Below are positions 22,701 to 54,171 of a DNA stretch of 64,000 bases, piece by piece. The DNA is from Muricea muricata (lineage: Eukaryota > Cnidaria > Anthozoa > Malacalcyonacea > Plexauridae): the NCBI GenBank assembly GCA_963855995.1, contig OY979717.1:26803746-26867745 (forward strand), in the 5' to 3' direction. The notes under the pieces were generated by a model. The model worked only from the letters and a program-made list of their open reading frames with translations, made no database searches and was not told the DNA's origin. Positions within the stretch are counted from its first letter, which is position 1; each line of letters opens with the position of its first letter. The translations under genes and the position numbers were made by a program.

Positions 22701-25700
22701 TAACCGGTAACCAGTGCAGGCTCATTAATGTCGGTGTGACATGGTCAAATTTAGGTCAAATTTATACCAAATACACAAGCAGCCGGATCTACAACACGCT
22801 GCAATCTTATCCTGTTAATATTTTGGAATTCTATACGTTATCTTTGGTACACATCTAACACATTACGTAGCTATTGTTTGGCGTAAGCGTGGTAAAGCCT
22901 TGTGTCTGTGTTAATATAAAGATTCTTGTTTTGTGTTCTTGAACCAGCGTGTAAATATGAAGAGAAATTCGAGATAAATTCTACATTACATTACATTACA
23001 TTACACAGCTGTTACAAAAATTAAAACTTTACTTGTTAATTTTGAGAGGAAATTCAGTAAAAATATTTTGTTCTTGGGTATTTGTGGGTATTTATGAAGT
23101 GAATTAATCATTCACATTTCAATGTTATATTAAAAATATTTTTCTATGATTAGAAGGAATTTTATCATGTCTGCATCTTCATTAAGACTTACTTGTTTCT
23201 GTACGGTCCGAATGAGTGATTCGTCGTTAACACCCGAACTTTACTTACTCCACTCCTGTTGTGTAGCGACATGTGTTAATTCATCAGAGCATTCACTGGA
23301 TTATACTGTATGTAATGCTCTAATATGTTGAATTGTTTCATTTTAGTCATATTCAACGCACGTCTTCACGGAGAATCATCTGAAAAATATCGCAAAAGCT
23401 TATAACATTCGTTTATCCCTCGACTCAGTATCGAACGTGTTCAGATGTGATGTAAGTATCTAAAACTAAAAGGATACATTGCTATCTAAAATACATCGCG
23501 TTTGATGTAATTAGCCGCGTTTTATTGCAATAATAACCTCCGACTATGGTTCAGTTTAGTACTGTAAAGCGGTATAAGAAACTGGCAATCGCACTTTGGA
23601 GTACTCTATAGGGCGCTCAATATTTAACATGCAGAAATAATATTTATATTCTTTGAACAACTACAGCACATTAACCTGTTTTGAAAATTACGCGATAAAG
23701 CCGGAAAAATTACATTATCATTCTGTTTATGTGCAGGTTCTCGTACGAGGTTGAGTAAAATATTGTGATTTGTCGCTGGCTCGCAGATTAATTATTCATT
23801 GTAATTATGCAGATTAATCATGTACTTTTCGCCATCGGCAAATCACGATATTTTGCTCAACCTCGTCCAATAAGTGGTTGCTAATGTCACTTTAATGCCA
23901 TGGCGAACTGCTATACAACAACGTAAACAAATATATAAATTAAGTCGTGTTTTTGTAATAATTATCACCAAAACGTCTTGAAAATCATTCAAAATATTTC
24001 TTTATGAGGCAGACAAAACGTATACATGCATTGATGATGAGCCACAAAATTTGTAACATTGAACAATTTGAACTTCGTCATTGTGTAATGTAAAACTGAC
24101 ATTCAGTGTGTTTACTGTAATTCGACATGATCGCGTGATTTTGAAAACTGATGTGAAATGTTTCAGCCTTGAAAAAACACAAATGTATATTACGGGTACC
24201 AAAGCGTATTTTGATAAAATACTATACAACGGAAACTCCGAAAATTGACAACATGATAAACTTTTATTTCAACGTTTCGACTATTTTTAGTGATCATCAG
24301 GAATGAGATAATGATCTTCTTACATCCTACAGGCTCCTTCGTTTCACTTAAAGGTCCCACACCTAAACAATATAAAAGCTCCATTGTTTATGAATTTAAA
24401 CGTCCAGGATGCAACCCGAACTACATTGGAAAAACCGACCGTTGCTTATACACAAGAATTAAAGAACACCCCTCCCGAAACACTTCTGAAATATATAATC
24501 ACATAAGCAATGAATTTAACTATATCAAAAACATTCTGCAAATAAGACCTTATGATGATACTAGCATTAATTATTCACTATCAGATCTAATCTTCACAAC
24601 ACTAAAATTGTAGGTAAATCTAGACATTGGTCATTGCTATTATGTTTAGGATCAATAGCAATTAACAGACACAAGCCTACTTTGAATCATGGGACAAAGG
24701 CCCCAAAAGAACTAGAGCTGTGGAAAGTCTGGTTTATTCACTTCCGGCTCCGGCAAAAAAAACTCCGGCTCCGGCAAAAAAACTCCGGCTTCGGCAGAAA
24801 ATTTTAAGCTTGTGTGCAAATTTGTCAAAATTGGAAATTTTTACCGTTTAAAGTGGAAACACCATCTTTGTTTTTTGTTTGACACTTCGCATTCTTTGCA
24901 TTCACATTTTTGTAATATGCATGATGCACGGTATTGTATTTGCAAAACGAGACGCATTTTCTCTTCTGGAAAAACATACAGTTAATAGCAATGTTTCAGT
25001 TATTCTTAAAAACACATATTCGACCTGTCATGTTGACAATTGTAAGCATAGCGTAGCAGCGTTTGATGAAATTTTCAGATAAAATTTTCACGCACTTTAC
25101 CGTCTTGCGGACGTCACAGTAACAAAAATGACATAAAATACCATAATTATAATTTCTATGTTTGTGGCAAGCCGTATTAGGCTGTATTTACTTTTTCGTC
25201 GATGAAGTTAGTTTTTTTGTTGGTCTATGATAGAAGTTTGCAGCACAAATAACTGCTGCCGGAGTTTTGCCGGAGGTGAACGAACTCCGGCTCCGGCAAA
25301 ATAGGGCAAAACTCCGGCTCCAGCCCTCCGGCTCCGATGCACAGCACTAAAAAGAACTTTTAATATTTAACTAGTATATCGTGTTTCTTCACTGTATTTC
25401 TATATTATGTAGTATGTAATTAGATCATTATTTCATTCCTGATGATGGCTAAAGAATAGCCGAAACGTAGAAATAAAAGTTTATCATGTTGTCATTTTTC
25501 GGAGTTTCCGTTGTATTGTATTTTAACAAATGTATATGTTGACTACACTTAAGACCTAAGTTAAGTCGTTTGACTAATCCACCGTTTAAGGTAAACGGGC
25601 TTCGAACAACCGTTCCTGGGAGTACTGTCGAAATTTCTGTAGATAATTCAAGGGGCTTGATTTGCAGCATTCCTATCTAACATTCAACAGGAGGAATAGC

Positions 25701-28700
25701 TTGAGAGCTTGTTAGTTCAGAACATGTATCCTCGGAAATATAAAAAGCATGGGAGGATAATAAAAATTTAATGTACAAGTAGTAATTGTTAACCACCTAA
25801 TTAGTAACCACTACCAACTACGCGTATCATCATATTATCAAAATACTTGTTTGATATCTATTTAGGTATGCCTAGTCGACTGCCGTGGGCACAAACCTTG
25901 GGTTTCGCATTTATTGGGTGCAAGACATAGAAAGGTTAGTGTCATTCAGTGTAAACAATTGTATTTTACTATTTATTTGTTCTTCCAGATTAACAAAAAG
26001 TTTAAATACTTTTGTCTAACGTTTCGGTCTCCTCTACGGAAACCATTATCAAAGACTATGAAATTAAAAGTTTACCGTTACCACAGAGTACTACACAAAG
26101 GGTTGTCTGTGTAGACGACTACCAATTGTGTAGTGCTCTGTGGTAACGGTAAACTTTTAATTTCATAGTCTTTGATAATGGTTTCCGTAGAGGAGACCGA
26201 AACGTTAGACAAAAGTATTTAAACTTTTTGCTAATCATGAAGAACAAATTAATAGTAAAATATTTCAACCTGGATTCAAACCCTTCAATGAAACAATTGT
26301 ATTTTATTTAATGTGAAGCGCGTTTAGCTGTAACATACTTGACGCATTTATGGTAATAAAAACGCACGTACAAATAATGCATCTGTTTCATATTTGACTA
26401 ACAATTACAATTATTGCTTGAGTTTACACACAACTAGTCATTCAAATACACTACCTCGTCCAATTTCAACGATAGAGTTTAAAAGACATGACCGTAGATT
26501 CACTTCAATATCAAATCAATTTCCTTCAGACCTTACATTTTACTCACATTGGTCAATCATGCTTCGCGTTGCTTATAGGCTTTGGAACAGGTAGCCATCG
26601 CACGAGCTGAAGAGAGAAACGCAATTTTGCAAGGCAGGGCAGGTACTGTACTGTATGTATTATCACTAAATTGCTATATAGTTTACTGATGTCAGATATG
26701 ATAATATATTGACACACTATTAAATTATCCTTGCTATGCATATAATAACATTTCACTGTACATCCCGGATATCTTGCATCATCAAGAACAATTTCCATAT
26801 CAAACACTTACAAAGCTTGTTAAGAAAATCTGTCGCAGGCCTCCGAAGTGATAGACAAATGCACTAAAAGTATATTGACACACAATATCAAAAGTTGTTT
26901 ACTAAACACGGTCGATATCTATGTTTTCTGACTGTCAGGTGGTCCAGCGAGAAGTAACAACTTGGGCAATATGCATAACAAAAAGCCTTATGATAGAAAT
27001 CCAAAACGAACCAACATTCAATCAGTGGCAGCACACGAATTTGCGCAGTATCCAGAGCCACTTATAGGTAACGTTTGTTTTCATCTTTAACTTGTATTTA
27101 AGGGTTATAGAGACTGTTGTGAGTGTTTTGTTTACAAATACATGCACGAGCTGAATGTACAATGAACGAAAAATTTTGTATACTGCACGAGGCCGCCGGG
27201 GCCGAGTGCAGTATGCAAAATTTTGAGTTCATTGTAGATTCAGCAAGTGCGTGTATTTGTAAACAAAACACGAACTTAACAGTCTCTAACACATTTAATA
27301 CATGATCTGAGTTCACTGGTCGTGCTCGCAAGCAAAAGCCGTACGCTTTCGCTACCAAAAAAAGATAAAACAAATCCGATTTTAAAAACATACGTGAAAA
27401 AAGTACAACAAATTTGAAGAATTGTGGCGAACAACCTTTACAAGCTGAGTCAAGCAAATAAACGCAACGATACGTCAAAAAATAGCCTGTTAAATGAGCT
27501 TTCATGCGAGAGTTCACTGACGAGAAAATGAGAATAATCGGTGTTTACTAAGTGTAATTACCTCCGACGATAGAAATTCTCAAGATTGTTTTCCTTTTTG
27601 GTCTTTATAGTAGAATTCATCGATATTTTCATCAACTTGTTTGCTTTATCCACTTGTAAATACAGTTTTCTTGGCGTTTTACTCCTGGCCATTTTCAATA
27701 CTGCACACTTTTCGTGCATTATTGTGATAACGCACTCAAACGACTCGTTGTTGCCAGGTAACCAAAACACACGTGATCGATTTTGACCAATCGCGTGCAC
27801 GGATTTTGAACAGTGAACGAAGATCATATATTAAATATATATAATGTACTGTATATATGTAATGTAATGTATATATAATTCCTTTTTTCTGAATAACATA
27901 CATCATACGTGTATTCCATGTATGTAGGTATGTAGGTCATGCATCCCTTATGATATTTCACATTTGATTTCACGTGTGAAATTGACTTACCACATGTAAA
28001 GTGTTTTAATTCCAAACACAAAATACTCGAATAATTTGATGTGTGAAATTATAATAATCTCATAAAATGTGAAACATTTGTGAAACATATATGTGAAACA
28101 TAAAATGTGAAAAGATATGTGAAATACAAATTTCACATATAAAATCTTTAAGTTTCACATGTGAAATGATCATTTTCACGTGTGAAATGTTCCAATTTTA
28201 CATGAAATTTCACATGCCAAATCATACGTGAATTTTCTGTAGGGGTTAACTGAACTTCATTGTAGAAGATAATTATAGGGAAATTTGATGTGTAAAAAAT
28301 ATATTATAATATAGCATTTGTGAATCCTGAACGCTGATTGGTTAAGAGCCGTGTTTACATTACTCAATGTAAACACGGAAAATTTCCCGCCACTTGTAAA
28401 CACGGAAATTTTTCGTATCCTTCGGGCTTTTGACATTGCTATTATAACACTAATATAAAACATTTTTTCCGTATTGATATACAGTTATATCAACACTTGT
28501 GGTAGTCGGGAAAACTCGAAATTGTGTAAAAACACTCCGCCCTTCGGGCGTCGTGTTTCCATACAATTTCTCGTTTTCCCAATTCCACTCGTGTTGATGT
28601 AACTGTATATCAACACGGAAAATGCTTTATATTTGTTAAATAAAGGATAGTTAATAGCTAAGTTTCCATAGAATTTTGCATTTGACTTGCAACCTTTGCG

Positions 28701-31700
28701 AGTGATGTGCCCTCCCTGATACTCGTGAATGATTAAACGAGTTGTCAATGTTCCGATAATATATGATCCTCGTTTGAATATAGACATGGAGATTTCAAAC
28801 GTGAAGCAAAAATTACTAGTCAAAACCGGCCTTAATATAGGAAGCGCATTTTTTTTCGTTCCAAAATGCAAAATGCTCGCCAGGGACGAGAGCAAATGTT
28901 GAGGTCATTTTAATATATTTTATAATATTGTTAATAATAAGTGATAGCAAATATTCTTATGCATGCAATTTTAAAAAATGCCGAGTGAGTATTAGTTCAT
29001 GCTTGCATTTCATTCAAATTGCTCTTACTAGAGAAGGTGCTATCACCTATAAACAACGAATGAAACATTTAATAGTTATATACTCATCAGACTGTCAACT
29101 GTTTCATTTCTCGAAATATTTTAAACTTTACAAATGCATATTTTTTGCCTGGCCTGTGATTTTCAAAATACACATGTGAGTTTCCACTTGCATAAAAGTT
29201 TCTTTCCTCGACTGGCTTGCACGGAAGTTTTTTCCTTACTTTTTTGGCAAATGAAGTAGGGAATCCTATTCAACATAAAAAACCTACCTCCAAAATCGTT
29301 GGATAGGATGGTATTAAATAACACGTTTGATATTTGTACAGCAAGAACTAAGTAATAGGTTCTTTACCTGCAAAAATATCAAGCCAAGGCTATTTCACTT
29401 TTTTGCTTGTTGTCAGCATTTTCCCCATTTCTTTAATCCTTTTTGGGGGGTTTTTTCAAAAAGATTTTCGATGGCAATGCTCGTATTGTGCGGTGCCTCT
29501 TTGATCTTTTTGATTTTCTTCATATTTCAGTGAAAGTGAATGAATCTATTTTCTCCAGAACTATGGCGAAAATAAAATCATTAATTTCGCTGCAAAAATG
29601 TAACCACTGCTGTACTTTAATCACCAACACACAGGCCTGGAATACGTGAAAGAGATCCAGGTTGCTGGACAAACTCCCCGCTATGAATGTTCTCTATGTA
29701 ACACGAAATTTGAGCATAATGTCAAGTTTCCACATCTCGTTGGACAAAAACATCGACTCAATGTATTGGTAAGTAGTTCATCTTCATGCCCAGAGCCAGA
29801 AGTGGGAAATTTTTGTTGTGCTTGGAATCCCAATTTAGGCTCGCAATTGCCTGATTAGTACTAGTACCGGTAATCAGTACCGGTAATATGGTAAGCGCAT
29901 GAAGATGTTTCCTGTCGTTGATTGATTGTAACTAACAATTAACCGTTTCGGAACATGAATGTCGAAGAGGTTGTTTGCACCGCATCGATTTGCAACAAAA
30001 GTATAACAATGTTATCGTTATAGTTTTGAGCAGTTTCATATCATTGTCATTTTAATGTAAATCTATTTGAGAACATTCATATTCTGATCATTATAAAAAT
30101 AAGAATGTTGTTTCTTATTTTTTTTTCTCACGTTCGGTGTCGTCAGTATTGGGGCAAATCTTGTGGCAATATTGCCACAAGTTATGCAACAATTTGTGCC
30201 GGTATAAAGAATTGCCTGCATTTTTACCCACATTGCAGCAATTTCTGAATATCAATACGATAGCAAATCCTTTTAGCGAAATTAACCGCTTGGATCTGCA
30301 AAGCAGACTTGTGCTATTTTGTGACAACGCTTTTAACATACTTGAATCAACCAAGTGGCAAGGATTTTGCAAAATCATGACACCTGTTTGGACAATTTGG
30401 ACATAGCCTTGTTAACTATTCTTTTTAACTATTGTTAACTTGTAGTTTTCCCAAAATGATTTATGCAACAGTCATGTATGTAAATTCAATTTTGTGATTT
30501 CTGATTATTTCTTTCTCGTTTCTCGTTGTTTGAAAATTTCTCCTGCGCTGTTTATTCTGTTTTAATACGAATGCATTTTATTAGAATTTTTACTATTCTT
30601 TCTTTACTTTCTTGGCGAAATTAGCTGTAACGTCACCTCAATTTTCATTTAACTTGATAATGCTCCGTCACTAACGTAAAAAAACTCATTGCCACAGCTT
30701 TGTGATTGTAACAGATGGAAAAATGCTGATCGTGTCTCTGTGACGCACAAAAAAATAACTCGCAAGACAAGCTAGGAAATCTCCAAATTTTGGGAATACT
30801 GAGCGGATTTTTAAGATTGTTGCTTAATGAAAAAGACAATAATTAGAAAATTGTAAATTGTAACAAGCTTTGTATAACAAGCTCAAGTGTTTGTATGGAA
30901 TTGTATATGCACGTATGGCGGAATCTTAGTGCTAACACTATTTTATTTTTTTTACATTCAGAAAGTCAAGCGACCTGATGCGGTTAAAGGAATGACGAGT
31001 AAAAAGAGGTCAGAAATAACCGTCGTGCTTGCACGAGAATCGGCTAATTTGGAATTAGAGGAAGGTCGACAACTAGTGAAAGCGACCGTAAAGAATCCCC
31101 CATTTAGCTTTAACGCTGATTACTCTCAACAGAATTCTGCAGGTTGGTATATTAATAGAAAAATATGCGCGGTGATATTTTCGTAATCCTTTTCTCCTCG
31201 GCAGACCTGGAGGAAAAGCAAAGGAAAATTTCGTGTCAGCTGAAAATCCCACCCCATTCCTCAACTTTCTAATGCTCCAGAATCTTTGCTAAAATCATGT
31301 TTCTGATGTCTGAACTTCGTTTTGTCAATTACAGTTTAATGTGCACTGGTATTGCTCTATATTTAGGTCAAGGGGCTGTTGGTGGTGGTAGAGGCGGCAA
31401 AGCCCGGGAAAGTCGCGGAGGTCGTGGTGTCGGTAAAGGAAAGACTGCAAAAATTGGATCGGGTAACCCAAGAGGAGGGCACAACCCCAGAGGAGGGCAC
31501 AACCCCAGAGGAGGACACGACTTTACAGCCGGATATAATTCAGGAGGAGGATACAACCCCAGAGGCGGGCACAACCCCAGAGGTGGGCACAAACCTGGAG
31601 AAGGGTACGACTCCAGAGGTGGGCACACCTCCAAAGGCGGGCACAGCTCCAGAGGAGGGCACAATCTCAGAGGAGGATACAATCCAGGGGAATCATTAGG

Positions 31701-34700
31701 ATCCTACACTCAGTCGCCTGCAGATTCCATCAGTGCCTCCTCATATTATGTTGATTCACATGATTCTTCCTATGGTTCCTATGACAATACCTCGTATGAG
31801 CCGCCTGGAGGTGCAAGTTTGGAAAATTATAGCTACCCTGGAAGGTACTTGGAAAGGTCAGTTTTTGATAATAATTCACTGTTTTATAATCGCACATTTC
31901 TAAACAAAGCAAACGACATTTCTGAAAAGAAAAACATTTAAATGTGTTTAATTAAAAAAACAGACAAATTTTTGTTGTCCATATGACATTGATCATCAAT
32001 TACTTTTTGGGTAATTACCTTTAAGCAAAGTCATCATTGTGTGCGATTCGTTCTTCATAGCAAAAAAAGTTTTACACGTATTGATAATAGCATGGTTTCG
32101 AGTGCAATTTGGAAGTAACGTGCCCGAGTGAGTTTTTCCAATGACGCCAAAATTGCTCGAATCCGCAGGACGAGTTATTTGTTAATAATTTGTTATTTGT
32201 TAACGCTATTATTTGTTACTAATGTAAAAGGAAATGTTTAGGACAAAAATACACGCAATACAACTGTACTTACATCGCGATCGCTCCCCTTCACTTTTTC
32301 CTTCAATAAACTTTAAATTTACGCTCATAACGTCGTGATAAATACGTGTAAAGTAGTCGAACTGCCCAATAGTCATGTATTTTATTTAAACAAATAGGTT
32401 TCGTCGAAAAACTAGCAAATTTGACCGCAATTGCTCTCAAATTTCACCCGCCATGTTTGTTTGCTTTGTCAAGAAAATTTGCATTTCCGTTTTCCCAATT
32501 CTTGCACACTTCTTGTACAGATTTTTGCACTCTTGTTTGGGATTAACTGCACTGAAATTGACCAATCACAGTCGAGATACCTTTGCTTCTACATTATTAA
32601 GGGTGTTAAAAAAGAGTTCACGGTTAAATGATATCACCTACAGTAACTAACGGGCGCTTGAAATATGCAAAAACTTTTAGTTACACTCTGGTCCATCTAG
32701 CACTAAATTTATTGCGAATTCTTTTCTATGAAGGGAATGTGTAACTAAAATGCATTTAAGAAATTAAATGAGTTATTCAATGCGATATTTTATTTAATTG
32801 GGTAAAAATGTGGAGTATGTTGCATGGACAAGCTATGAAAGTATTTGCGCAAAGAAATTGTGTGTGGAGAAAGTGATGTGTGGAAAATGTAGTTTTTGGA
32901 GCTCCCGCCTTCGTCTTCGCGTGCATCTGATTTTCATAATACTCACGACAGCTCGTATTAAACTTCATATTTTGACTCAATTAATTTAAATATCGTGTTT
33001 ATTGTCTGATTTTTGTGCGCAAGGCGTTTTTTAATTGCTTTTTAGCAGCACCTTTCCAAAATAATGAAATGCATTGTCTTGAAAAGGTAGAAGCAGATGA
33101 TAGCGAATAAACAGTACGTCCACTCAGCAGTGCAACGTGTCCCCCTATTTTTATGCAATTGACTGGCCAGAATACTGACGGAGCAGCCAGTTAAGCGTTT
33201 CTATTGGCCAGAAAAGGCAATTGACTGGCCAGTATCTGCACAATAAGATGCGACATGCGAGGGGAAACAAACTTCAAATGTTCCAATTCGAGTACCCCTT
33301 CTGTTTGCTTTCTATTCTGTGCTAGAAATAGCTATTCTTTGCCCATATTTAACAGTAATATCACTCAGGTTAGCATGATTAATTGGAGTGTTATGACATT
33401 TTACCTTTACATTTATCTTTGAAACATTTGGTGTTGGGATTGCTGGTTCAGATCAATTTGTATCCGTTTGTAATCAGCCTCTAATTGACTGCCATTGCTT
33501 GCAGCAGTGGTCAGGCGTATCCCAGACATACATACCCTGGCGCGTCATCTCAGCACCCTGACAGTGAATATGCGTATTCTACGCCACCTCCGCCGCAAAT
33601 TCCACGCATGTCATCTCCAGAGTTTGGCAATTCCACGACCAAGGTACAGCAGCCCAAAAGGATTTGTACATTATAGAGAAGTTCTAAATCCATATTGTAA
33701 TAATTCTGTAATATATGAGAAATTTTTGTCACCGAATTGTATTTTGAGTAAAACACGATTAAAAACGCGATCAGTGTTGTGTGGAAATTAGTTAAAACAC
33801 TCGTTGTATCACGAGTATTCCGAAGGAAGAATCTTTTCGTACGTTAAAAATTCTGTTACACCGTAACCTCTGGTATACAATATCGAAAACATTTGATAAC
33901 ATGCACTATTCGTGTTGAATTCAAGGTACATGGAAAGGATAATGTGCAAATTTAAAAAGCAATGGCAACTAAAAAATATTGTGCGCTCGTTTTAAAGAGC
34001 TTTTGCAACAATTAACAAAACCTCTTGCTTTCATCTGCTTTTTTATTCTTGGGATATTTTTGCTCAAGCATATGGGCTTTCCGCCATCTTGCATACATTC
34101 TCGAGCACGTCACAAGTGGGATAAGCCTTTAAAGTGCTCGTAACAAATTAAGGTGGCTCGATAGTCTAACTCATAGCACATAGTACTTCTTTCGCCATAT
34201 AATCTTTTATGGTGCGAGTGTAAAGCTTAGTTTAGGTCATTGCGTAGCTCTACTGGTTGTCTTCATAATTGGAAAAGTTTTATACTCCTACCGTTCATAT
34301 GTCCAGAGATATTGCTGTCATAGGTAAGGTGTCGAGTTTATGCAAATGAAATTATAATTAGAATCGAGTTCCAACAAGAAACGTGATTTCTATGTTCAGG
34401 CAAACTTTGAAGAAATTCGTTTTTACATACAGCAAACAGTGCTGTAGAGCTGTGCAATGACCTAAAATGAAGCTCAAGCATTCACTACAAAACATTTAAT
34501 CGTAGAGACATAAAATTTCTAATGAATTCTGACTATCGAGCCACCTTAAGTAATAACCAGTAGTTGGCCAATTTTTTTTTTCAATGTGTGATGTAAAATT
34601 GCAAGTATAAACGACTTTCTGGTTCGTTCAGATCACTTCTTGTCAATAACCAAAGGTCGCGTGATCCCATTTCTGATGTAACATGCATATCCTTAAAAAT

Positions 34701-36498
34701 CCATGATGACGGACTGCTCGTATGCTTCAGAAGCTCTTACAAATGAGCAAGGGATATTTCTTGTTGCCAATGCCTTTAAATGCAAATTTAAATCGCTTTC
34801 CCGCGCTGTAGTATTAACAGCATTGCTTTTTGTTGTATTATAGGAAGGAATATCCAGTGGTTTAGCTGGTGCACTTAGTGATTTGGTAAGCGTTTTTAAC
34901 TCCTAAGACAAGAAAGGCGTAACTGAAATGTTTGTTGTATTGAATGCATACTTATCTGTTCAGTTTGCAAACAACTTAAACTGGCCTTTCTTAAATTAGA
35001 TACGAGTATAATAAGTCGTCGTATTTTTTAAAACTTAAGCTATAGAACAAGTATTGCATAAAATGTATTAGCTGTAGACTATTTTATGAATAGTTCTCTC
35101 CGTCCAGTTTTGCATGCGTAAAATTTGTATATTTTTTCGCAATGTGATGTTTTACTGGGTGAATTTACATTTAGGCTGATATATGGTATTCACCAATTAA
35201 ACCAAGACTTTTTCTCAAATAGACAAAACTTGTCCAGAATGAGGATGATGCATCTGTCGCTCTCCAGGTTTCAAATGCTTTGACGCAGGCGCTGTTACAG
35301 TACAGGATGGGCAGTGAAATGATGGTAAGAATAGCCGTACACACGTAAAAATCTCTCAACTTGTAACAAGTTTGCAGACAAGCCGTCAACAAGATGTGTT
35401 CGCACTGCTTGTACCAAGTTTGTCAACAAGTTGTTCCAAACTTGTTGACAACTTGTAACAAGCTTGACGAAAATATCAGACTTGTTACAAGGTTGTTTTA
35501 ACGACTCTGATACAATCCTGTTGTAGCAAGTTTGTTACAAGATTGACAACACAAGGCTGTAACAATATTGTTATATCATGCTGTATCAGTCTTGTTGGAA
35601 CAATCTTGTAACAGTCTTGTAACAGGTCTGATAGTCCCATCAAGCTTGTTACAATTTGTCAACAGCTTGTTCCAAACTTGTTCCAACAAATTCGGAACAA
35701 GCAGTGCGAATACATCTTGTGAACAACTTGTGAACAGACTTGTTACAACTTGTTTGCAGGTCTGTAGCAACTTGTGCGTTTTTACGTGTGTACGTGTGCT
35801 TGTGTTTAATGTGCATGTATTACGCATTGATCTTGTCTAAAGGTACACGCGAGTGATCAGGATCATATCAAGAACAAAGCATGGACATAATGACTCTTTA
35901 AATATAGAAGAATAAAATGCCAGGGATCATACAGCTGACAATATTTTTGGCTTATATTGGCTGAAATTTTAATGCGGAAAATATAGTTGTCGCTAATCAT
36001 TCGTGGTCACCAGTAGTCATTGGTGTGAACTTTTGGGCCCCGTTTACGCGGCACTCGATAAAAGTTCGTTTGGATAAATTTGCGGCACTGATGCAGACAA
36101 TTGCTAAATTGGCTCTCCGTTTACACGGTATACGGACAGAGTAAGGATCATTTCGCATTAACTGTAGAAGCTGTTTTTGTTGTCAGTGTTGTTTTTAACG
36201 TTGGTGTTGCATAATAGTCTTGAATTACCTGTTCATTGAAATTCTGATGAATTTTGGAGCCAGGTCTCGCAATGTTTAGAAACAAGTTATAAATTGTTTC
36301 TTTAAATTAACTTTGAAACGCGATTAACAAAACTGTTTAAAACAGCTTAATGTAGGTATTTTAAATTGCTCGGGGAGATCTGTTTTAGCTCGATTTATTA
36401 CAAAGCTGGTTCCCCAACCCTCTTCTGGTATTAAATATCGCATTAATGTATATATAGGCTAACACTTCTTTTATTTCTGTATGCAGACTGAAAAGTGA
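16604..36498 (+). CDS. Three-finger U1/matrin-type zinc-finger protein with RGG domain
   Basis: Twelve exons with consistent phases: 16604-16783, 23347-23451, 25866-25934, 26591-26642, 26939-27067, 29635-29768, 30962-31142, 31367-31856, 33505-33643, 34844-34885, 35223-35324, 36487-36498. The product is about 544 aa. Finger 1 is C49-C52-H65-H71, finger 2 C94-C97-H110-H116 (both C-x2-C-x12-H-x5-H) and finger 3 C197-C200-H212-H218 (x11). Fingers 1 and 2 are interrupted by phase-0 introns and become complete only after splicing, which strongly supports the model. A basic linker, a charged segment after finger 3 and a Gly/Arg/His repeat region (about 284-400) follow, then a Tyr/Ser/Pro-rich tail. 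Fingers of this class bind double-stranded RNA or structured RNA in JAZ, ZFR and U1-C relatives, and RGG repeats also bind RNA. A nuclear RNA-binding role is inferred. I do not recognise an orthologue. Introns are loaded with transposons. Confidence 0.82.
16972..17128. repeat. Short inverted-repeat element in intron 1
   Basis: Ends of the form ATA(T/C)AAA(C)AAATAATGAATG are inverted copies. Internally GTGCAATAGTAAGAATG is opposed by CATTCTTACTAATGCAC-like sequence. A further stretch at 17275-17350 repeats GTGCAATAGTA and its complement. Confidence 0.6.
17877..18706. mobile_element. TIR element of ~830 bp in intron 1
   Basis: Inverted ends GGGGTCGTCGACAAATA run for about 50 bp with few mismatches, through TCCACCAAT and CTTGTTCCGCG. 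Just inside each end is a G-rich GAGGGGAGGGAGGG stretch. The interior codes for nothing recognisable. No clear target duplication is visible. Confidence 0.7.
19960..20060 (+). repeat. Three short tandem copies
   Basis: ACATCAATCTATATTTACAA repeats three times with a period of about 36-40 bp. Confidence 0.6.
20080..22330 (-). mobile_element. Degraded CR1/L2-like LINE
   Basis: On the minus strand, AP-endonuclease words appear first: YLPPGQSEMDHF near 22262-22225 and IIAGDFNP near 22150-22130 (GDFN at 22148-22137). Then an RT start with KYFPEIWKHYSVAAIPKVVP (21383-21078) and an FMDDTTM polymerase box followed by ELNLKKCKELI (20547-20317). Last comes a C-terminal part with RYSILEYCAQVWHGKLT (20270-20080). 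Many stops and frameshifts make it non-functional. It sits in intron 1 of the zinc-finger gene, in antisense. Confidence 0.75.
22440..22725 (-). mobile_element. LINE 3'-end fragment
   Basis: The minus strand reads LHWLPVRYRVLSSVLLVVYK and continues with GFAP and YSLRSDEWSL-like words, the typical C-terminal tail of non-LTR retrotransposon polyproteins. After a frameshift come AFMKAGPALRNLMPS-like words. It is separate from the LINE at 20.1-22.3 kb because it lies upstream of that copy's endonuclease. Confidence 0.7.
22982..23006 (+). repeat. ATTAC microsatellite
   Basis: About four to five perfect copies of the pentamer ACATT/ATTAC. Confidence 0.8.
23347..23451 (+). CDS. Zinc-finger gene exon 2 (finger 1 histidines, finger 2 start)
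   Basis: 35 codons between TTTTAG and GTAAGT. It supplies SYSTHVFTENH for finger 1 and ends FRCD, the first cysteine of finger 2. Confidence 0.8.
23745..23873. repeat. Short foldback element in intron 2
   Basis: CGAGGTTGAGTAAAATATTG at the left is matched by its reverse complement ending CAACCTCG at the right. A central GCAGATTAATTAT repeat lies between. Confidence 0.65.
24270..24310 (-). ncRNA. Hammerhead ribozyme core, left PLE arm
   Basis: On the minus strand CTGATGA (24300-24294) is followed by an ACTA/TAGT helix with a short A-rich loop and then CGAAACGT. This matches the conserved C-U-G-A-N-G-A ... G-A-A-A hammerhead core with a very short third helix. Not shown to be active. Confidence 0.6.
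24306..24712 (+). pseudogene. PLE GIY-YIG endonuclease fragment
   Basis: The frame reads SSIVYEFKRPGCNPNYIGKT followed by RCLYTRIKEH, the GIY-YIG signature (VYEF...NYIGKT...R..EH). A stop at 24613 reflects a frameshift. In the next frame the family's tail continues (INRHKPTLNHGTKAPKE) and is then split by the hAT-like insertion at 24713. It belongs to the endonuclease domain used by PLEs for target-primed reverse transcription. It is broken. Confidence 0.8.
24713..25349. mobile_element. hAT-like non-autonomous element with 8-bp target duplication
   Basis: AAAAGAAC at 24705-24712 is repeated exactly at 25350-25357. The element begins TAGAGCTGTG and ends CACAGCACTA, inverted ends with two mismatches, followed inward by CCGGCTCCGGC blocks. 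An 8-bp duplication and a TAG(A/T)GCTGTG end are typical of the hAT superfamily. It carries no transposase. Confidence 0.88.
25439..25471 (+). ncRNA. Hammerhead ribozyme core, right PLE arm
   Basis: CTGATGA (25439-25445), a GGCTA/TAGCC helix with loop AAGAA, then GAAACGTAG. All conserved core bases are present and the third helix is minimal. Such minimal motifs are described for PLE repeats, where they may act as dimers. Confidence 0.72.
25866..25934 (+). CDS. Zinc-finger gene exon 3 (finger 2)
   Basis: 23 codons in phase 0: the second cysteine and HLLGARHRK histidine half of finger 2. TTTAG acceptor, GTTAGT donor. Confidence 0.8.
25970..26245. mobile_element. PLE-type palindrome with two hammerhead-like cores
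   Basis: The two arms are near-perfect reverse complements of over 110 bp (CTAACGTTTCGGTCTCC... and ...GGAGACCGAAACGTTAG) around a loop of about 30 bp. The right arm (26172-26207) reads TTGATAATGG, then a 7-bp GGTTTCC/GGAGACC helix with a GTAGA loop, then GAAACGTT. It resembles the hammerhead core but with CTGATGA changed to TTGATAA. No coding region remains. Confidence 0.7.
26591..26642 (+). CDS. Zinc-finger gene exon 4
   Basis: 52 bases from an ACAG acceptor to a GTACTG donor, phase 0 in and phase 1 out, encoding VAIARAEERNAILQGRA. A short basic linker after finger 2. Confidence 0.75.
26939..27067 (+). CDS. Zinc-finger gene exon 5
   Basis: 129 bases in phase 1 at both ends, between GTCAG and GTAACG. 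It encodes a basic Asn-rich linker ending EFAQYPEPLIG, which reads directly into exon 6. Confidence 0.78.
   Translation: MVQREVTTWAICITKSLMIEIQNEPTFNQWQHTNLRSIQSHL
27108..27288. repeat. TIR foldback element in intron 5
   Basis: Ends TAGAGACTGTT and about 55 bp inward (GTTTTGTTTACAAATAC, GCTGAAT, ACAATGAAC) are inverted copies. The centre contains GCACGAGGCCGCCGGGGCC. The whole unit folds into a hairpin. Confidence 0.8.
27565..27695 (-). CDS. Possible small basic exon, minus strand
   Basis: From an ATG near 27695, an open frame reads MARSKTPRKLYLQVDKANKL and on to NLENFYRRR, ending at an AG/GTAATT donor near 27565. It is Lys/Arg-rich. The style suits a first coding exon, but no partner exon is found and it lies inside the zinc-finger gene's intron, so it may be transposon-derived. 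Confidence 0.25.
28036..28235. repeat. GTGAAA/TTTCAC-rich low-complexity block
   Basis: Repeated ATGTGAAA words in the left half and their complements TTTCACAT/TTTCACGTG in the right half make a degenerate foldback. Confidence 0.6.
28302..28633. repeat. Composite inverted-repeat element, copy 2 (reverse orientation)
   Basis: Matches 4141-4445 in reverse complement. It contains CGCTGATTGGTTAAGAGCCG, then 28454-28633 with inverted ATAAAACATTTT(TT)CCGT ends and internal GATATACAGTTATATCAAC. An extra CCGCCCTTCGGGCG hairpin is at its centre. Confidence 0.75.
29635..29768 (+). CDS. Zinc-finger gene exon 6 (finger 3)
   Basis: 134 bases, phase 1 in and phase 0 out, ACACAG acceptor and GTAAGT donor. 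Holds LEYVKEIQVAGQTPRYECSL and the rest of finger 3 with HLVGQKH. Confidence 0.85.
30962..31142 (+). CDS. Zinc-finger gene exon 7
   Basis: 181 bases after a pyrimidine-rich ATTCAG acceptor, phase 0 in and 1 out. Encodes KVKRPDAVKGMTSKKRSEIT then an acidic/amphipathic stretch, probably helical (ARESANLELEEGRQLVKATV). Confidence 0.8.
31367..31856 (+). CDS. Zinc-finger gene exon 8 (RGG/RGGH domain)
   Basis: 490 bases. It starts GQGAVGGGRGGKARESRGGR and continues with about a dozen degenerate PRGGHN hexapeptides encoded by an 18-bp minisatellite (about 31468-31690). It then becomes Ser/Tyr-rich. Donor GTCAGT, phase 2. RGG repeats are established RNA-binding and arginine-methylation sites. The His in every unit is unusual. 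Confidence 0.83.
33104..33332 (+). repeat. Dispersed ~230-bp repeat family, copy 2
   Basis: Same family and orientation as 5628-5858 (GCGAATAAACAG start, TTGACTGGCCAG words, CCCCTTCTGTTT end). Confidence 0.75.
33505..33643 (+). CDS. Zinc-finger gene exon 9
   Basis: 139 bases, phase 2 in and 0 out, TTGCAG acceptor and GTACAG donor. Encodes a Pro/Ser/Tyr-rich segment with STPPPPQIPRM. Confidence 0.75.
34152..34545. mobile_element. TTAA-flanked TIR element
   Basis: GGTGGCTCGATAGTC at the left end and its exact reverse complement at the right end. TTAA lies immediately outside both ends (34148-34151, 34546-34549). TTAA target duplication is characteristic of piggyBac-type transposition, although the terminal bases are GG rather than the usual CC. 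Non-coding, in intron 9. Confidence 0.8.
34844..34885 (+). CDS. Zinc-finger gene exon 10
   Basis: 42-base micro-exon, phase 0, encoding EGISSGLAGALSDL between TATAG and GTAAGC. Confidence 0.7.
35223..35324 (+). CDS. Zinc-finger gene exon 11
   Basis: 102 bases, phase 0, encoding TKLVQNEDDASVALQVSNAL and 14 more residues, with GTAAGA donor. An amphipathic helix seems likely. Confidence 0.7.
35336..35794. mobile_element. MITE of ACAAGTTG-type internal repeats
   Basis: CGTACACACGTAAAAA at the left is inverted at the right. The body consists of dozens of ACTTGTTACAAG-like words in both orientations. It begins only 11 bp after the exon 11/intron boundary. Similar words recur at 52325-52480. Confidence 0.8.
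36487..36498 (+). CDS. Zinc-finger gene terminal exon (TEK stop)
   Basis: A strong pyrimidine tract and TATGCAG acceptor precede ACTGAAAAGTGA, which adds TEK and a stop in phase 0. ATTAAA at 36668-36673 would be the poly(A) signal of its 3' UTR. An alternative terminal exon at 35843-35890 adds VHASDQDHIKNKAWT. Confidence 0.5.
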   Translation, partial: TEK

Positions 36499-36667
36499 AA
36501 AGTTTTTCCTGCCCGCTGACTAGAACACTCGCTGGGGTTTCGTGTCTTTCTGTTATTTTAAACTCCTTTTATGTCAGAAAATGTGTGTAAATTTTTAGCA
36601 TATTATAAAGTTTGTACACTTTTTTCTTATTTGTAATACTGTTTGTTAATATACGTCATCTTACCTT

Positions 36668-36673
36668 ATTAAA
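36668..36673 (+). terminator. Candidate poly(A) signal of the zinc-finger gene
   Basis: ATTAAA, the commonest variant poly(A) hexamer, 170 bp after the proposed stop. Confidence 0.4.
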
Positions 36674-36731
36674 GTTTAAGTCAATTTTATCTAGTGAAAC
36701 GTTGGAAAGTTTAAGGGCATGACGGACTTAA

Positions 36732-36910
36732 GGCGGATTTCCATTCAGTGCAAAATGTCGCGCGATCGATTTTTAGCGAGCGCTTTCTTTTGAAATGTGT
36801 GAAGTCAACCACAGCTAATGAGATTTTTTCGGCTTGACTGTTTGTAATTCAAAACAAAGCGCTCGCTAGAAGTCGATCGCGCGACATTTTGCACTGAATG
36901 GAAATCCGCC
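36732..36910. mobile_element. TTAA-type palindromic MITE
   Basis: GGCGGATTTCCATTCAGTGC at the left is inverted at the right, with arms of about 60 bp including GTCGCGCGATCGA and AGCGAGCGC. TTAA flanks the left and TTTA the right. Its end (TTAAGGCGG) resembles that of the 34152 element (TTAAGGTGG). Confidence 0.8.
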
Positions 36911-37349
36911 TTTAGTTCACGTACTTGCAAGCGCGCCGAATTCACTGACATGTGCTTGTTAGAATTAGATTAAAATAATTAATAATAATTACAGTACTGT
37001 CTGTGGTGAAGTGTTAATATGATTCTAACAATGAGAAAGGTATTTTCGTGACCCGTGATTTGCATTATTTTGCACGACGTAGTTTACGAGAATACGAGAA
37101 ATTTCCGTAAATAATAATAGCAACCCAGTTGATCTATATAAATACTGTACTATGATTCACTACCCCTATTTTAGTACACCGTATTTGAAATATAATCTGA
37201 TTGACTGTCGTTAGCTTTTTCATATCACTTTGTGTCTGACTCATAATCTATCTAAATTTACTAGTCACCGTCTTCCTCAGATTTCTGCATCCCCTGAGTG
37301 TTTTCGACGCTTCGTGATTTCTGCCTTTCTTGTTCCGGTTTCTTTGCTT

Positions 37350-37900
37350 CACAATGTAGCTCTGCTAGGTATAGAAACTGAATAGACCTTTCGAGGTAAT
37401 TCCTGTACGAAGTCTAACCGCTCTCGCAATTCCATCTTTTTCAGGTATTAGTGTGTCCATAACTCCCATCTTCCACTTGCTTCGGTTCTTTTCCTCGCCT
37501 AGATAAGATCGTGCGCTTTTCCCGTGATGTCGTAAATCATGCCATTGCGCATGATTACACTTGTTTAAATATTTTGCTCTCCTTCCTAGATTACCTTCTT
37601 TAATTTCTTCGTTTGGCAGGTCTAATAGATTATTCGCTTTTCCCAGGTCGTTTGGTGTGAGAACCGAATGTTGCTCGTCATCTTCACAATACGTTAAATG
37701 TCGGTTGTTAAGTACAGTGTCCAGCAATACATCTTGCAACTCCTTGTACGTAACCTTGGCAAGGCCAACAACTTTGTAAAGTGAATTCTTCACTAACCCT
37801 ACTATTCTCTCAAGGACCGCTGCAGAATCATCAAATCCAATGGCAGTTTTTTCGGCAAGGCAGGCTGGTGGGGATGTATGTTTGAGGAGAAACTTTTCAT
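37350..37900 (-). mobile_element. BEL/Pao-like retrotransposon C-terminal fragment
   Basis: The minus strand from 37793 reads an integrase end (VTYKELQDVLLDTVLNNRHL followed by LTPNDL). A DUF5641-like tail comes next (WKMGVMDTLIPEKDGIARAV, then RLRT). These follow the order found at the end of BEL/Pao polyproteins. Upstream words are degraded. No LTR was identified. Confidence 0.65.
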
Positions 37901-38334
37901 CTCGGGTCGCTTTCTTAATCCTCTTTAAAGCAGCATGGTCTTCCCATTATCTAAGATGATCTTCTCAAGTCGACCTCGGTAATATGAGAATTTTTTGAAT
38001 TGTTTGGTGTAAATGGGAATTTTGGCTTGTTCTCATCATCAATTTTCTGGCCATCCTGTTGATCCTGGTGACTTTTTCAATCTTGACTTCCTGTTCTTCT
38101 TCCTTTGTACTCTTATTAAGAGAGTCTACTCATCTCTAAATTGCAACCATCGCTTAATGCTAATGTTCTTCGATTTGTATCTTTGACATTCTACACAACT
38201 TTCTGTTGTGTCATTTGTTTTATGGTATCTGTATGTATAATGTATTAATGGACAATTTGTATAATAGACTAAAGGTCGAACTAGGCAGGAAGAGCGAAAT
38301 CGTTTGTTACAGTTAGAAAGCGCATCTTAAATTT

Positions 38335-38578
38335 AGTAGGACTGCAAAGTTTGGTGGCAAAATGTTGCAAAATACGGAAAGTATAGCCCTGCAAAGTTTG
38401 CAAATTTTGTATATATTTGTATTACGCGCGGAAAACGTTACCATTTTTGAGCTAAGATTGCTGCGAAAATGGTAACTTTTTCCGTGCGTAATACAAATAT
38501 ATACAAAATTTGCAAACTTTGCAATGCCATATTTTCCTTTTTTTTCAACATTTCGCCACCAAACTCTGCAATTCTACC
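38335..38578. mobile_element. Long palindromic MITE
   Basis: AGTAGGACTGCAAAGTTTGG at the left and its near complement at the right. The arms exceed 100 bp and include TTTGTATATATTTGTATTACG. The loop is about 20 bp. Confidence 0.8.
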
Positions 38579-38761
38579 AATCGCAGGATCCTCTTTCTAG
38601 CTGTGGTAAAAGATTCTGTTCTTTTTGCCCAGATCGAATGTTAGTCTATTATGCAAATTGTCTATTATCCTGTAATTCGCCTGTTTAAATTCAAATTTTA
38701 TAACCGTTTGTAACACTGTATATAGAGACCTTTGTACATATTAGAGATAGTTTCATAGTGC

Positions 38762-38803
38762 GCTGAAGATGTTGCGAGTAGCAACGAAACGTTAGCGTCA
38801 ATA
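38762..38803 (+). ncRNA. Isolated hammerhead ribozyme core
   Basis: CTGAAGA, a GTTGC/GCAAC helix with loop GAGTA, then GAAACGTTAGCGTC. This fits C-U-G-A-N-G-A with A at position 7 and an intact GAAA. It resembles the PLE cores elsewhere in the window. No inverted partner or endonuclease frame was found near it. Confidence 0.6.
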
Positions 38804-39904
38804 AAATTTTTTCTATAATTTTTTTTAACAAAGAAAGTTAAGGAAAGTTAAGTTGTAAACGAGGATATACGAATTATGTTCATTGTTCATGATAGGGTAG
38901 CCCTATGCAGAAGGCGTAGATTATAGTATAATCTACGCCTACTACATCAATCGTCGTCATTCCTTGGATTCCTTTTTTCGGCAGCTTACTTTGATGTGGA
39001 CTAGGTTCTGATGCTGTGTAGAATCGCTTACATCCATAAAAATGACAGAGGTTTTCGTAGCTAATGCATGAAAGTTGAAATCCAGCATTCTTCACGAACT
39101 TCGCTCATCAAAAAGCCAACTCCCTAACGCTGAGTATCCACCTGAGCTTGTCTTACGATCATTCCAGATAATTTTTTTTTGCTGGGAGATACTCAGGTTA
39201 TTCACCTTGGATTATTTCTTTACACGCGTATATCCCCTTGTCATTCTTTTGAAGATTCAATGTGGTTGAATCATTTCAAGGACTTTGCATTCAGATTGTA
39301 ATCGTTTGATCTTGAACTGCATCTGCTTCTCCATCTCTTCGAAGGCATATTGACCTTCTTGCCGTACACATAGTTGTCATAAAATCGTCCCACTCATGCT
39401 AAAATTCGGACACTCTTCGACAGCCGAAACTTTGCTAACAGACTATCGACAATAATTCTACCTGGAAAAACTCATAATTATCATCAGCCTCTTAGCATAC
39501 AGTTTTCTAAGGCCACATAAAACAAGTTCCTTGATTCTCATCGCTGATTTTTAAAATTTAGCTCAGGAGGCGGGCGGTTTATACTTTATATTAAAATATT
39601 TTTTAATTACCTGGGTGTGAAAAATCGGAAAGAAAGGTCTTGGCCTTAATACGTTCTAGAAGAATGCTGTTATAAACAAACGAACAGTTATTTTAAGCCA
39701 TGTACCATTGTAAAGAATCGACAAGAAAAGTCAGAGACATCATTTAAGCCAATCCTGGTTTGTGATCTTTATACTGGTCCACCATGTCTGTTACGACAAC
39801 TCATCAACATTATGATATTTGCAAATTTATACCGTAAAAATTTCTTTTCAAAATATAAAATGACTAAATTTCTAAAGATTCTTTGACGGGCGGTACATTT
39901 ATGT

Positions 39905-40015
39905 ACTATTTTAAACACGAGCAGGAGTGTTTTATTGGGTAAAAAGACACGAGTGCGAAGCGCGAGTGGCTTTGTAGCTAATAAAACTCGTCATGCGAGT
40001 GTTTTAAATGCTTCA
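39905..40015. repeat. Short foldback element
   Basis: ATTTTAAACACGAGCAGGAGTG at the left is opposed by GCGAGTGTTTTAAAT at the right. The centre has CGAGTGCGAAGCGCGAGTG. Confidence 0.55.
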
Positions 40016-40280
40016 AAAACATTTGCATAACAAAGCCAAATATAAAAATCTTTGTATAAAAATCTTCATATAATTTACATAACAATCATCTTATGTATTA
40101 TTGCATAATGAAGTGTTCTCTAGCAAGTATAAAGAGGCATGCACGTCACTTATTTAGTACTGGATATTGGATAATTAGAGAATTCATTTGTGACTATATC
40201 GCAACCAGGTATATAATCCGACATAAGTGCTACTCTGGTTTTGTTAAATGAATGAAATCACCGAGCAAAGATTACATTCA

Positions 40281-40329
40281 CGACCCAACGTTTCGACACT
40301 CCGGTCTAGTGTCTTCATCAGGGGTGGTC
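40281..40329 (-). ncRNA. Hammerhead ribozyme core, left arm
   Basis: Reverse complement of the right-arm motif: CTGATGA at 40321-40315, a GACACT/AGTGTC helix, then GAAACGTT. Confidence 0.7.
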
Positions 40330-40431
40330 TGATGTTGAAACTCACGACCTTATATGCTGTCAAGGTGACGTCATCTACCAACAAGATGTAAATACTCTTG
40401 TGGTAAATGACTTCCGTCATCTGTTGCAACT

Positions 40432-41076
40432 TTGTTTCAGAGAGCGGAGAATTTAACATCGAACTACGATGCTAGGGAAAACGAGTGTCAATATGTAACC
40501 AATATTCTGAAAGAAAACAATTATCCTAAGAGCTTTCTCTACGATTGTTTAAGGCGTCCAACCTTGACTCATTGCAACTCTCCAGAGGGTGACTCCGCTG
40601 TGAAAGGTTTTGCAATAGTTCCGTACATTCAAGGAATTGCGGAACCGATCAAGAGAGTTCTTAATAATTGTGGTATCAAGGTTGCCCTGAAACCCTTTCA
40701 GACATTGGGACATATTTTTGCGAAACCCAAGGATCGCGTTCCGACTGATCAGAAAACACATGCTGTATACTCTATAGCATGCGGTGATTGCGAGAAAGTA
40801 TATCTGGGTCAAACAAAGCGCCAGTTTTGCACACGTCTGAAAGAACATCAAAGAGCTGTTTCTAATTTTTACAGCTCAAAATCAGCTTTGGCTGAACACG
40901 TGTGTGAAACAAGCCATAACATTGCGTGGGAAGATTCTAAAGTCATTACCACTAACAATCGTTATGGTCAAAGGCTTTGTTTGGAAGCCTGGCATATCAA
41001 TGCGAGCCCTTGTGCCTTAAATAGGGATGACGGAAGTCATTTACCACAAGAGTATTTACATCTTGTTGGTAGATGA
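40432..41076 (+). CDS. PLE C-terminal region with GIY-YIG endonuclease
   Basis: 214 codons open without a stop. The first ~75 residues correspond to the RT thumb/linker (KENNYPKSFLYDCL). The region from about 100 on is a GIY-YIG nuclease: HAVYSIACGDC, then KVYLGQTKRQF, RLKEHQ, a SALAEHVCETSH segment and a later LEAWHI glutamate. This domain nicks target DNA for PLE retrotransposition. It is a 5'-truncated copy, so not autonomous, but its frame is intact. Confidence 0.85.
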   Translation: MFQRAENLTSNYDARENECQYVTNILKENNYPKSFLYDCLRRPTLTHCNSPEGDSAVKGFAIVPYIQGIAEPIKRVLNNCGIKVALKPFQTLGHIFAKPKDRVPTDQKTHAVYSIACGDCEKVYLGQTKRQFCTRLKEHQRAVSNFYSSKSALAEHVCETSHNIAWEDSKVITTNNRYGQRLCLEAWHINASPCALNRDDGSHLPQEYLHLVGR

Positions 41077-41117
41077 CGTCACCTTGACAGCATATAAGGT
41101 CGTGAGTTTCAACATCA

Positions 41118-41166
41118 GACCACCCCTGATGAAGACACTAGACCGGAGTGTCGAAACGTTGGGTCG
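41118..41166 (+). ncRNA. Hammerhead ribozyme core, right arm
   Basis: CTGATGA (41126-41132), 6-bp GACACT/AGTGTC helix with loop AGACCGG, then GAAACGTT followed by GGGT that can pair with ACCC just upstream of CTGATGA. The third helix is a bare ACGT palindrome, which could pair between two molecules. Confidence 0.75.
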
Positions 41167-41271
41167 TGAATGTAATCTTTGTTCGGTGATTTCATTCATT
41201 TAACAAAACCAGAGTAGCACTTATTATGTCGAATTCATGAGAATTATTAATGAGTTTTTGAAATTATATCA

Positions 41272-41733
41272 TTTGAAAGAGACTCTAAAAAAATATGTAT
41301 AGACGTCCATTACAAAATCTTTATATCTGTTTTACTTCGGGCGATATTCTCACCTAAATAATCGAACTGTCCGCCATCTTAGATTAATTTTTAACCTCAT
41401 TAACAATGTTTTGGTGACGTCACAACAGGGTTAGGCCATTCAAACCTTCTCCTAAATACCTAAGCCAATAAAATATTTGTGAAACCTTTTCTGACGTTGC
41501 TGAAATCCGAAACACTTACTTTGTGTGTGGTTATTAGAGAAGATTAATCATTGTGTCGTAAGAAAAAAAATTGCGTGACCCCAGTTGTGACGTACATGCA
41601 TATCCACAAATATCCAAGATGGCGAACAACTAAAGATTTCAAGACAAAATATCTCACCAAATAAAGCAGATATAAAAATTGTGTAGTTGTCTTCTATATA
41701 TTGTTTTGGAGTCTCTTTCAAATAGGACGATAA
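41272..41733. mobile_element. TIR element (ATTTGAAAGAGACTC ends)
   Basis: ATTTGAAAGAGACTC near 41272 is inverted near 41733. Complementarity continues inward through the ATATCTG/CAGATAT, GATATTCTCACC and CCAAGATGG words. Non-coding. Confidence 0.7.
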
Positions 41734-42539
41734 AAATTTTTGTTGCCATTTCCCTTTAAAGTTCAAGTTTCTTACACAAGGTTAAACACATAAACGTGGT
41801 TTATCTTTATTATTAGATACTTTGATGACTTAAGAACTTTACAAAAGTTTGCCATCGGTTTCAAGGTTATTGATCCTTCAAAATATGAAAATGCTAAAAT
41901 CTTGCAAAATCCTGACAATTCCTACACGTCACAGGATTTTGTCTACCATCTGTCTTGAGTTCACTGTCTGTCACCAACAGTTCTACGAGCTTTTCATAGT
42001 TTTGAATGCAATTTAGAACTACAGCAAATAAGCTTCGAACATTTTTTTTCGTTTTGCATTTTACGAGTCAACTTTCTCTTTTTTCTTTCAATTTTCGTCC
42101 GAAATATGATTAAAACTCAAAGCATTGCCGATCCATTTTGAATAATACACATAACATAATTTATTTATATATATTGGCACTTACATGTTCCAGCAGCCAA
42201 TAAACGAGTTAAAACTCATACATACCCGGCGTGGCGTGCATTGAGGAATGAGATTTTTTTTGGGGGGAGTGTTGACAACTTAAAAAATGTTGACAACAAA
42301 ACATTTTTCAATCCTGGTTCCATGATCAACATTAAACAGGCGATAATTTTTCTGATGTATACCTCCATTGCAGCCCATCGCTTTCTGATTCCGTTCTGAA
42401 GCGCACTAAGTCTAAAACGTACAAAATTACACAAACTATAAACTGCACTATTCACTACACTTTGCAATGATAGATAATAAGATGACCCGATCATGACATG
42501 ATCTATTCTTTGAATTGCATTCAATATCACCCAGTGAGC

Positions 42540-54135: not shown

Positions 54136-54171
54136 CCGACTCAAAAAAAATTAATTCGGACGTTTAACCAC

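Follow-up and report, generated by a model that had tools for sequence, protein, structure and literature searches.

How do two hammerhead ribozymes come to lie in opposite orientations within a single insertion? The question is raised by a 64,000-nucleotide stretch of contig OY979717.1 of the anthozoan Muricea muricata (assembly GCA_963855995.1, positions 26,803,746 to 26,867,745; hereafter the window), where a first-pass annotation had tied several hammerhead cores to Penelope-like elements (PLEs) and considered opposed ribozymes in inverted arms notable. This arrangement is ordinary for the class, since inverted pseudo-long terminal repeats (pLTRs) are a published architecture of PLEs in the available portions of PMC3846280 and PMC8969392; such repeats, and a tail on one of the two, have been described before, and the elements are of a known kind. 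The mechanistic information is carried by two properties absent from that annotation, namely the target-site duplications (TSDs) and the unequal outer ends of the paired copies.

Two inverted pairs in the window, assigned to families here called A and D, are complete insertions, each consisting of two 5'-truncated copies (Table 1). The arms of the family-A insertion (40223-40421 and 41026-41224) are 99% complementary and the whole is flanked by an 8-bp target duplication, while the family-D insertion has inverted arm segments that are 92% and 87% complementary and a duplication of 12 bp. Outer ends were scored as long (L) when they carry a 27-45-nt tail and as short (S) when they lack it. Exactly one end is tailed in 58 of 61 head-to-head pairs scored in the 453-Mb genome; in three pairs both ends are tailless, and in no pair are both tailed.

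The 61 pairs comprise 44 of family A, 13 of family B, three of family T and one of family D. Sample 1 of family A contains all 29 close (-,+) pairs among the matches listed for the exact ribozyme core and for the CTGATGA pattern described below (100 places for each), with L062/L063 (a direct repeat with an unclear left end) excluded. One L end is present in 27 of them, none in two (L045/L046 and L065) and two in none; at even odds, at least 27 one-long pairs among 29 have a probability of 8e-7. Sample 2 was found by a word between the ribozyme and S, the matches listed being 100 of 211 places, and holds pairs outside sample 1 in which at least one arm has no listed core match. All 15 independent pairs of this sample have one L and one S end (L131/L069 scored by eye, and the partner L073 taken from the core-pattern listing). 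In family B, the 37 listed arms gave 13 scorable pairs, 12 of them with a single L end and L047 with none, and the pairs of family T (3/3) and the window pair of family D (1/1) are also one long and one short. L104/L105, L117/L118, L114 and L121 were recognized by shared flanks as duplicates with L102/L103, L115/L116, L113 and L127, and L113, L122, L125 and L129 are uncounted because no second end was found in the fetched stretch. Outside the 61, L004, L007, C5:7950203/7950515, C7:3594877/3595048, L092 and a decayed pair at 8500/9340 of the window are consistent with the same rule.

Aligned to one reference copy, the family-A L ends fall at R 127-153, mostly at 140 or more, and the S ends at R 101-113. 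The L end is tight (R 139-153 except for L006 at 127 and L073 at 135) and the S end scattered. No correlation between tail and arm length was seen by eye.

In these insertions, which were chosen as close inverted pairs, both outer ends are 3' ends of the element, and most of the insertions are flanked by direct target duplications of 8-14 bp. A TSD of at least 8 bp surrounds 46 of the 56 pairs tested: 24/29 in sample 1 (21 of them 11-14 bp) versus 5/812 mismatched flank pairs, 12/14 script-scored pairs in sample 2 versus 2/182 controls, and 10/13 in family B versus 2/156 controls. The targets are AT-rich, with 26% GC in the 31 TSDs at least 11 bp long that were compared, and no motif distinguishing the L side from the S side of the target was seen.

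The inverted arms are cut off at different points, and direct and inverted pLTRs with 5' truncation are found here as in PLEs. Measured against a single reference, L066, the two arm lengths sum to the spacer within about 40 bp in 21 of 24 whole-fetched loci, L066 itself being one of the 21; the exceptions are L008, L053 and L055. A comparison of each arm's length with those of every other arm gave no information, since loci that are built alike match one another. Either arm of a pair can be the longer one. The run of A before the S site has the same length (4 or 5) in both arms of all 19 scorable pairs, the differences between arms number 57 within pairs compared to a mean of 69 in shuffled pairs (p about 5e-5, for 23 of the 29 pairs), and in L131/L069 a further private change is common to both arms. 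The arms thus match in their variants better than chance, which argues that both derive from RNA of the same source.

Taken together, these data probably reflect a reaction in which RNA of one source is primed by both cut target strands, with one complementary DNA (cDNA) made from each of two start sites. The GIY-YIG/reverse transcriptase (RT) protein would make staggered cuts in the two target strands, and the DNA 3' ends so freed would each prime a separate cDNA on the PLE RNA. For one cDNA, synthesis would begin at the distal site (L), which in family A is about 45 nt into the open reading frame (ORF), and so give rise to the tail; for the other, it would begin at the start codon, the proximal site (S), or now and then upstream of it. 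Joining of the two cDNAs where they stop would yield a head-to-head twin with oppositely oriented ribozymes. The ribozyme, which copying has nearly always passed through, may trim tandem transcripts and would not be needed at the copied site. For the Anolis PLE protein, the available portions of PMC11167929 describe cutting and extension of both target strands in vitro, with RT starting internally at two neighbouring sites that correspond to the tail. Beyond this, we infer a dimer, simultaneous action and the use of one RNA molecule for both ends. In the strongest form of the proposal, for which the case seems to us evenly balanced, PLE integration would be an obligatory two-ended reaction of a dimeric ribonucleoprotein with RNA of one source, using two start sites at once. 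Every insertion would then be born as a tailed/tailless twin, and solitary-looking copies would be twins with a second arm only a few tens of bases long.

Two loci can be read in this way. The solitary-looking L004 ends in S on one side, whereas on the other a 12-bp TSD and only 21 nt of inverted tail precede the body. L092 can be taken as a complete insertion that consists of a short S arm and a tail stub of about 28 nt. A family-B array at C1:88625548-88634685 (L110-L112, L130) contains three minus and two plus pLTRs in head-to-head arrangement, spaced 2.5-2.7 kb apart. One of its outer ends is S and the other L, a 12-bp TSD is present, and it looks as if both cDNAs had copied a tandem RNA over several units.

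Several observations weigh against this two-site priming. Besides the three pairs without a long end, L049 is one-long by motif but a looser alignment reached the long end on both sides, and the long end of L006, counted as one-long, is a shortened tail. Six of the 58 family-A ends of sample 1 lie well upstream of S (R 52-87), so the short class is not a single point. Ten of the 56 pairs tested, and all three family-T pairs (0/3 with TSD), have no TSD of at least 8 bp, and TSD lengths were scored with a tolerance of up to 8 bases into the element. In the family-B fold, S lies in a hairpin loop and not opposite L as in family A; no common structural reason for the pairing of L and S emerges from the two folds, and the idea that the two sites generally face each other across one RNA stem, seen in the family-A fold only, was dropped. 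Finally, sample 1 was chosen by intact ribozymes in both arms and is therefore silent on single-armed copies, and for L010 and L024 no second end or TSD was found, so the hidden-twin reading cannot cover all solitary copies.

The alternative that survives best is that two RNAs of the same locus prime independently and that the enzyme acts in sequence, the first end at L and the second at S, in place of a two-site dimer. This retains appreciable weight, although we doubt it: copying of the same RNA region by both arms is simplest with two templates, and a tight L end next to a scattered S end would suit two successive steps. It differs from priming of one-source RNA at two sites solely in timing and in the number of RNAs.

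Fold-back self-priming, in which a single cDNA snaps back and copies itself into an inverted arm, is an unlikely origin of these structures. It is the interpretation given to palindromes at inverted junctions in the PLEs of Adineta (PMC3846280, in its available portions), and the arms within a pair are indeed similar, the family-B twins L035, L123 and L127 being near-palindromic. However, a fold-back arm should stop at the end of its template, yet the outer ends are unequal in 58/61 pairs and adjoin direct target duplications in most; that either arm may be the longer one also counts against it. The Adineta vaga Penelope families with inverted pLTRs described in the same source number few copies, whereas here the TSDs are mostly 11-14 bp and exactly one end is tailed in the great majority of pairs, and under self-priming as presented there, unequal outer ends flanked by a direct TSD would not be expected.

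A role of the hammerhead in shaping the insertions, with ribozyme-cut RNAs as the normal templates, is similarly improbable. In family A, the truncation points of L080 and L092 coincide with the predicted cleavage site and that of L077 misses it by one base; these are three of the six truncations within the ribozyme region among the 100 listed arms, and they are suggestive of occasional cleaved templates. The junction of L077 is complex, though, and L080 has no visible partner arm. Moreover, the site is read through in 97 of 100 family-A arms (among the matches listed, 100 of 211, a sample blind to arms truncated further downstream) and in all 37 listed family-B arms, none of which is truncated there.

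Two independent, adjacent PLE insertions in opposite orientation can hardly be the explanation: the preference of PLEs for AT-rich targets (PMC11167929, in its available portions) and the low GC content of the duplications make clustering conceivable, but among the matches listed (100 of 162 family-A places) the 22 close inverted same-family pairs, within 5 kb, are all (-,+), with 3' ends outward, and none is (+,-), variants agree between arms, and a single TSD encloses the whole structure in most pairs, which refutes independent insertion for those. Direct repeats account for two more close family-A pairs among these matches, with spacings of 2,565 and 2,566 bp, and direct tandem units occur in L055/L056, L062/L063 and the C1:88.6 Mb array.

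The ribozyme assignment itself was examined with the pattern CTGANGA-N4..30-GAAAC, which matches the window eight times, compared to 0.98 expected and to no shuffle out of 100 reaching eight. Five matches have a helix II and correspond to the cores first annotated at 24300 (-), 25439, 38762, 40321 (-) and 41126, which are thereby borne out; no convincing helix II was seen by eye in the other three, at 30110 (-), 36244 (+) and 58329 (-). The claim that paired bases of helix II are preserved holds for the other window cores and fails at 24274, where C stands opposite C at the first pair. Among the degenerate forms reported, those at 26180 (TTGATAA core with an intact helix II, GAAACGTT) and at 8500/9340 appear by eye to be decayed relatives, and the one at 3285 was rejected as it lacks the GAAACGT tail.

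A covariance search of the window against Rfam, proposed in the first-pass annotation with the absence of any hammerhead hit as the refuting outcome, gave 14 matches up to E = 10 and no hammerhead among them; the best microRNA-like matches are hairpins of inverted repeats. All five sites with helix II continue the core as GAAACGT-H, in which ACGU is self-complementary, so that helix III would have no loop of its own. The miss in Rfam is probably due to this, the cores being of the helix-III-less type known from PLEs (minimal PLE hammerheads lack helix III in the available text of PMC6155905 and PMC7761336). Genome-wide, CTGATGA-N14..34-CGAAACGT has 884 matches versus 9 for the reversed control pattern, and the exact 41126 core has 162 copies versus 0 for its control, which argues against a chance motif despite the outcome in Rfam. 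Helix II differs between fetched loci as complementary pairs (GACACT/AGTGTC, GACTA/TAGTC, GGCTA/TAGCC, GTTGC/GCAAC, GTCTTA/TAAGAC), indicating that the helix was kept while its sequence changed. Judged from sequence, then, the five intact cores are real and beyond chance.

Beside the core, the first three positions of stem I pair in 91-96% of 54 distinct copies versus 33-73% with swapped flanks, and at positions 8-10 pairing is rarer than in that control. Folded as single strands, the five window sites have energies that do not stand out (z -0.2 to -1.3), and at four of them CUGAUGA is predicted to pair with an upstream stretch. Such a CAUCAG/AUCAUCA-like stretch is found by eye in copies of families A, D and T (in the window at 41105-41150 and 25420-25466). 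It is absent in family B, and the pairing is therefore not general. Where present, it could hold the ribozyme off.

The claimed tie to PLEs is supported for both inverted pairs of the window, through GIY-YIG readings by eye and sub-threshold matches in L066, and is not established at 38763 or 26180. In the family-A insertion, the ORF has a legible VYS..CGDC..VYLGQT..R.KEH motif, which we take to be of the PLE GIY-YIG type; on its own, this ORF gave no Pfam match and no match in the PDB up to E = 1. In the longer family-A copy L066, a 360-aa frame matches RVT_1 (0.00099) followed by GIY-YIG (0.18), both below the curated cut-off. The endonuclease remnant in the family-D insertion gave no Pfam match. 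The 3' tail, an optional PLE feature, is present in the elements here.

Several distinct hammerhead types do occur in one window, as had been proposed. No inverted partner of the 38763 core was found within 35001-42000, and no target duplication was seen at the old inverted pair.

Table 1. Coordinates of hammerhead cores, insertions and associated features in the window
Feature	Position	Strand	Basis
Old inverted pair, its ends decayed and family-T/D-like; long on the left and short on the right by eye; outside the 61 pairs	8420..9425		by eye
Left target-site duplication ACAAATGTATAT of the family-D insertion	24179..24190		end scoring
Second PLE insertion, family D, head-to-head with 3' ends outward; left end long, right short	24191..25525		inverted arms, scored ends
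Hammerhead core, left arm of the family-D insertion, first helix-II pair broken	24274..24300	-	pattern scan, helix II comparison
Putative remnant of a second, different GIY-YIG PLE endonuclease	24341..24610	+	translation read by eye
Hammerhead core, right arm of the family-D insertion	25439..25466	+	pattern scan, helix II comparison
Right target-site duplication ACAAATGTATAT of the family-D insertion	25526..25537		end scoring
Near-perfect palindrome with decayed hammerheads at about 26030 (-) and 26180 (+), belonging to a further family	25962..26262		repeat comparison, read by eye
Hammerhead core of another type (CTGAAGA)	38763..38790	+	pattern scan
Left target-site duplication GAATTCAT of the family-A insertion	40180..40187		end scoring
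Complete family-A PLE insertion, two 5'-truncated copies head-to-head with 3' ends outward; left end long (tail), right short	40188..41230		inverted arms, scored ends
Minimal hammerhead core, left (inverted) arm of the family-A insertion	40290..40321	-	pattern scan
Stop-to-stop ORF of 221 aa with a putative PLE GIY-YIG endonuclease C-terminus	40411..41076	+	translation read by eye
Minimal hammerhead core, right arm of the family-A insertion, identical to the left core	41126..41157	+	pattern scan
Right target-site duplication GAATTCAT of the family-A insertion	41231..41238		end scoring

Other features were observed in passing. At 13651-14094 (-), an open stretch matches the CREG beta-barrel family (E 9.8e-21) and is probably an exon of a host gene. 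An open frame at 31273-31941 (+) has 18-bp tandem coding repeats (unit AACCCCAGAGGAGGGCAC) and no Pfam match, and a tandem array with 18- and 54-bp periods lies at 54166-54526. A weak DUF5641 match (0.0028, below the cut-off) at 37368-37946 (-) may mark a BEL/Pao-type element. Long near-perfect palindromes or hairpins at 60304-60407, 38246-38667 and 36726-36916 give sub-threshold Rfam matches to microRNA precursors. Elsewhere in the genome, hammerheads of two families face each other about 1 kb apart at L021 (4199+/5331-) and L022 (4234+/5204-), loci in opposite orientation that perhaps represent a composite repeat.

The closest known systems include GIY-YIG PLEs such as PAc, a Poseidon element of Anolis (PMC11167929, in its available portions), with which the elements here share a pLTR with a minimal hammerhead, AT-rich targets, probably the GIY-YIG C-terminus and, on the mechanism proposed here, two RT start sites as the bounds of the tail and the cutting and extension of both strands. 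The use of start sites by PAc in vitro showed no strand difference in that account, whereas the two ends of one insertion nearly always differ here. The ribozymes resemble the minimal, dimer-acting type I PLE hammerheads (Cervera & de la Pena 2014; Lunse et al. 2017, as represented in the available parts of PMC6466107 and PMC7761336) in core, helix II and the lack of a helix III loop (GAAACGT); no difference in sequence was noticed, and PLE hammerheads are described as forming double hammerheads (PMC6466107, same parts). Plant and animal retrozymes also have hammerheads in retroelement repeats, but they are non-autonomous, those of plants having direct repeats and a non-coding centre, unlike the inverted twins with apparent RT and endonuclease sequence found here (PMC7761336, same parts).

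The one-long, one-short rule is not stated in the available portions of the literature searched, where a search aimed at the older Drosophila virilis Penelope papers listed none of them, and no priority is claimed. Being near-strict and accompanied by short direct duplications, the rule makes inverted pLTRs a readout of the integration reaction, and it yields a prediction for in vitro insertion assays in which both strands are read from the same molecule.

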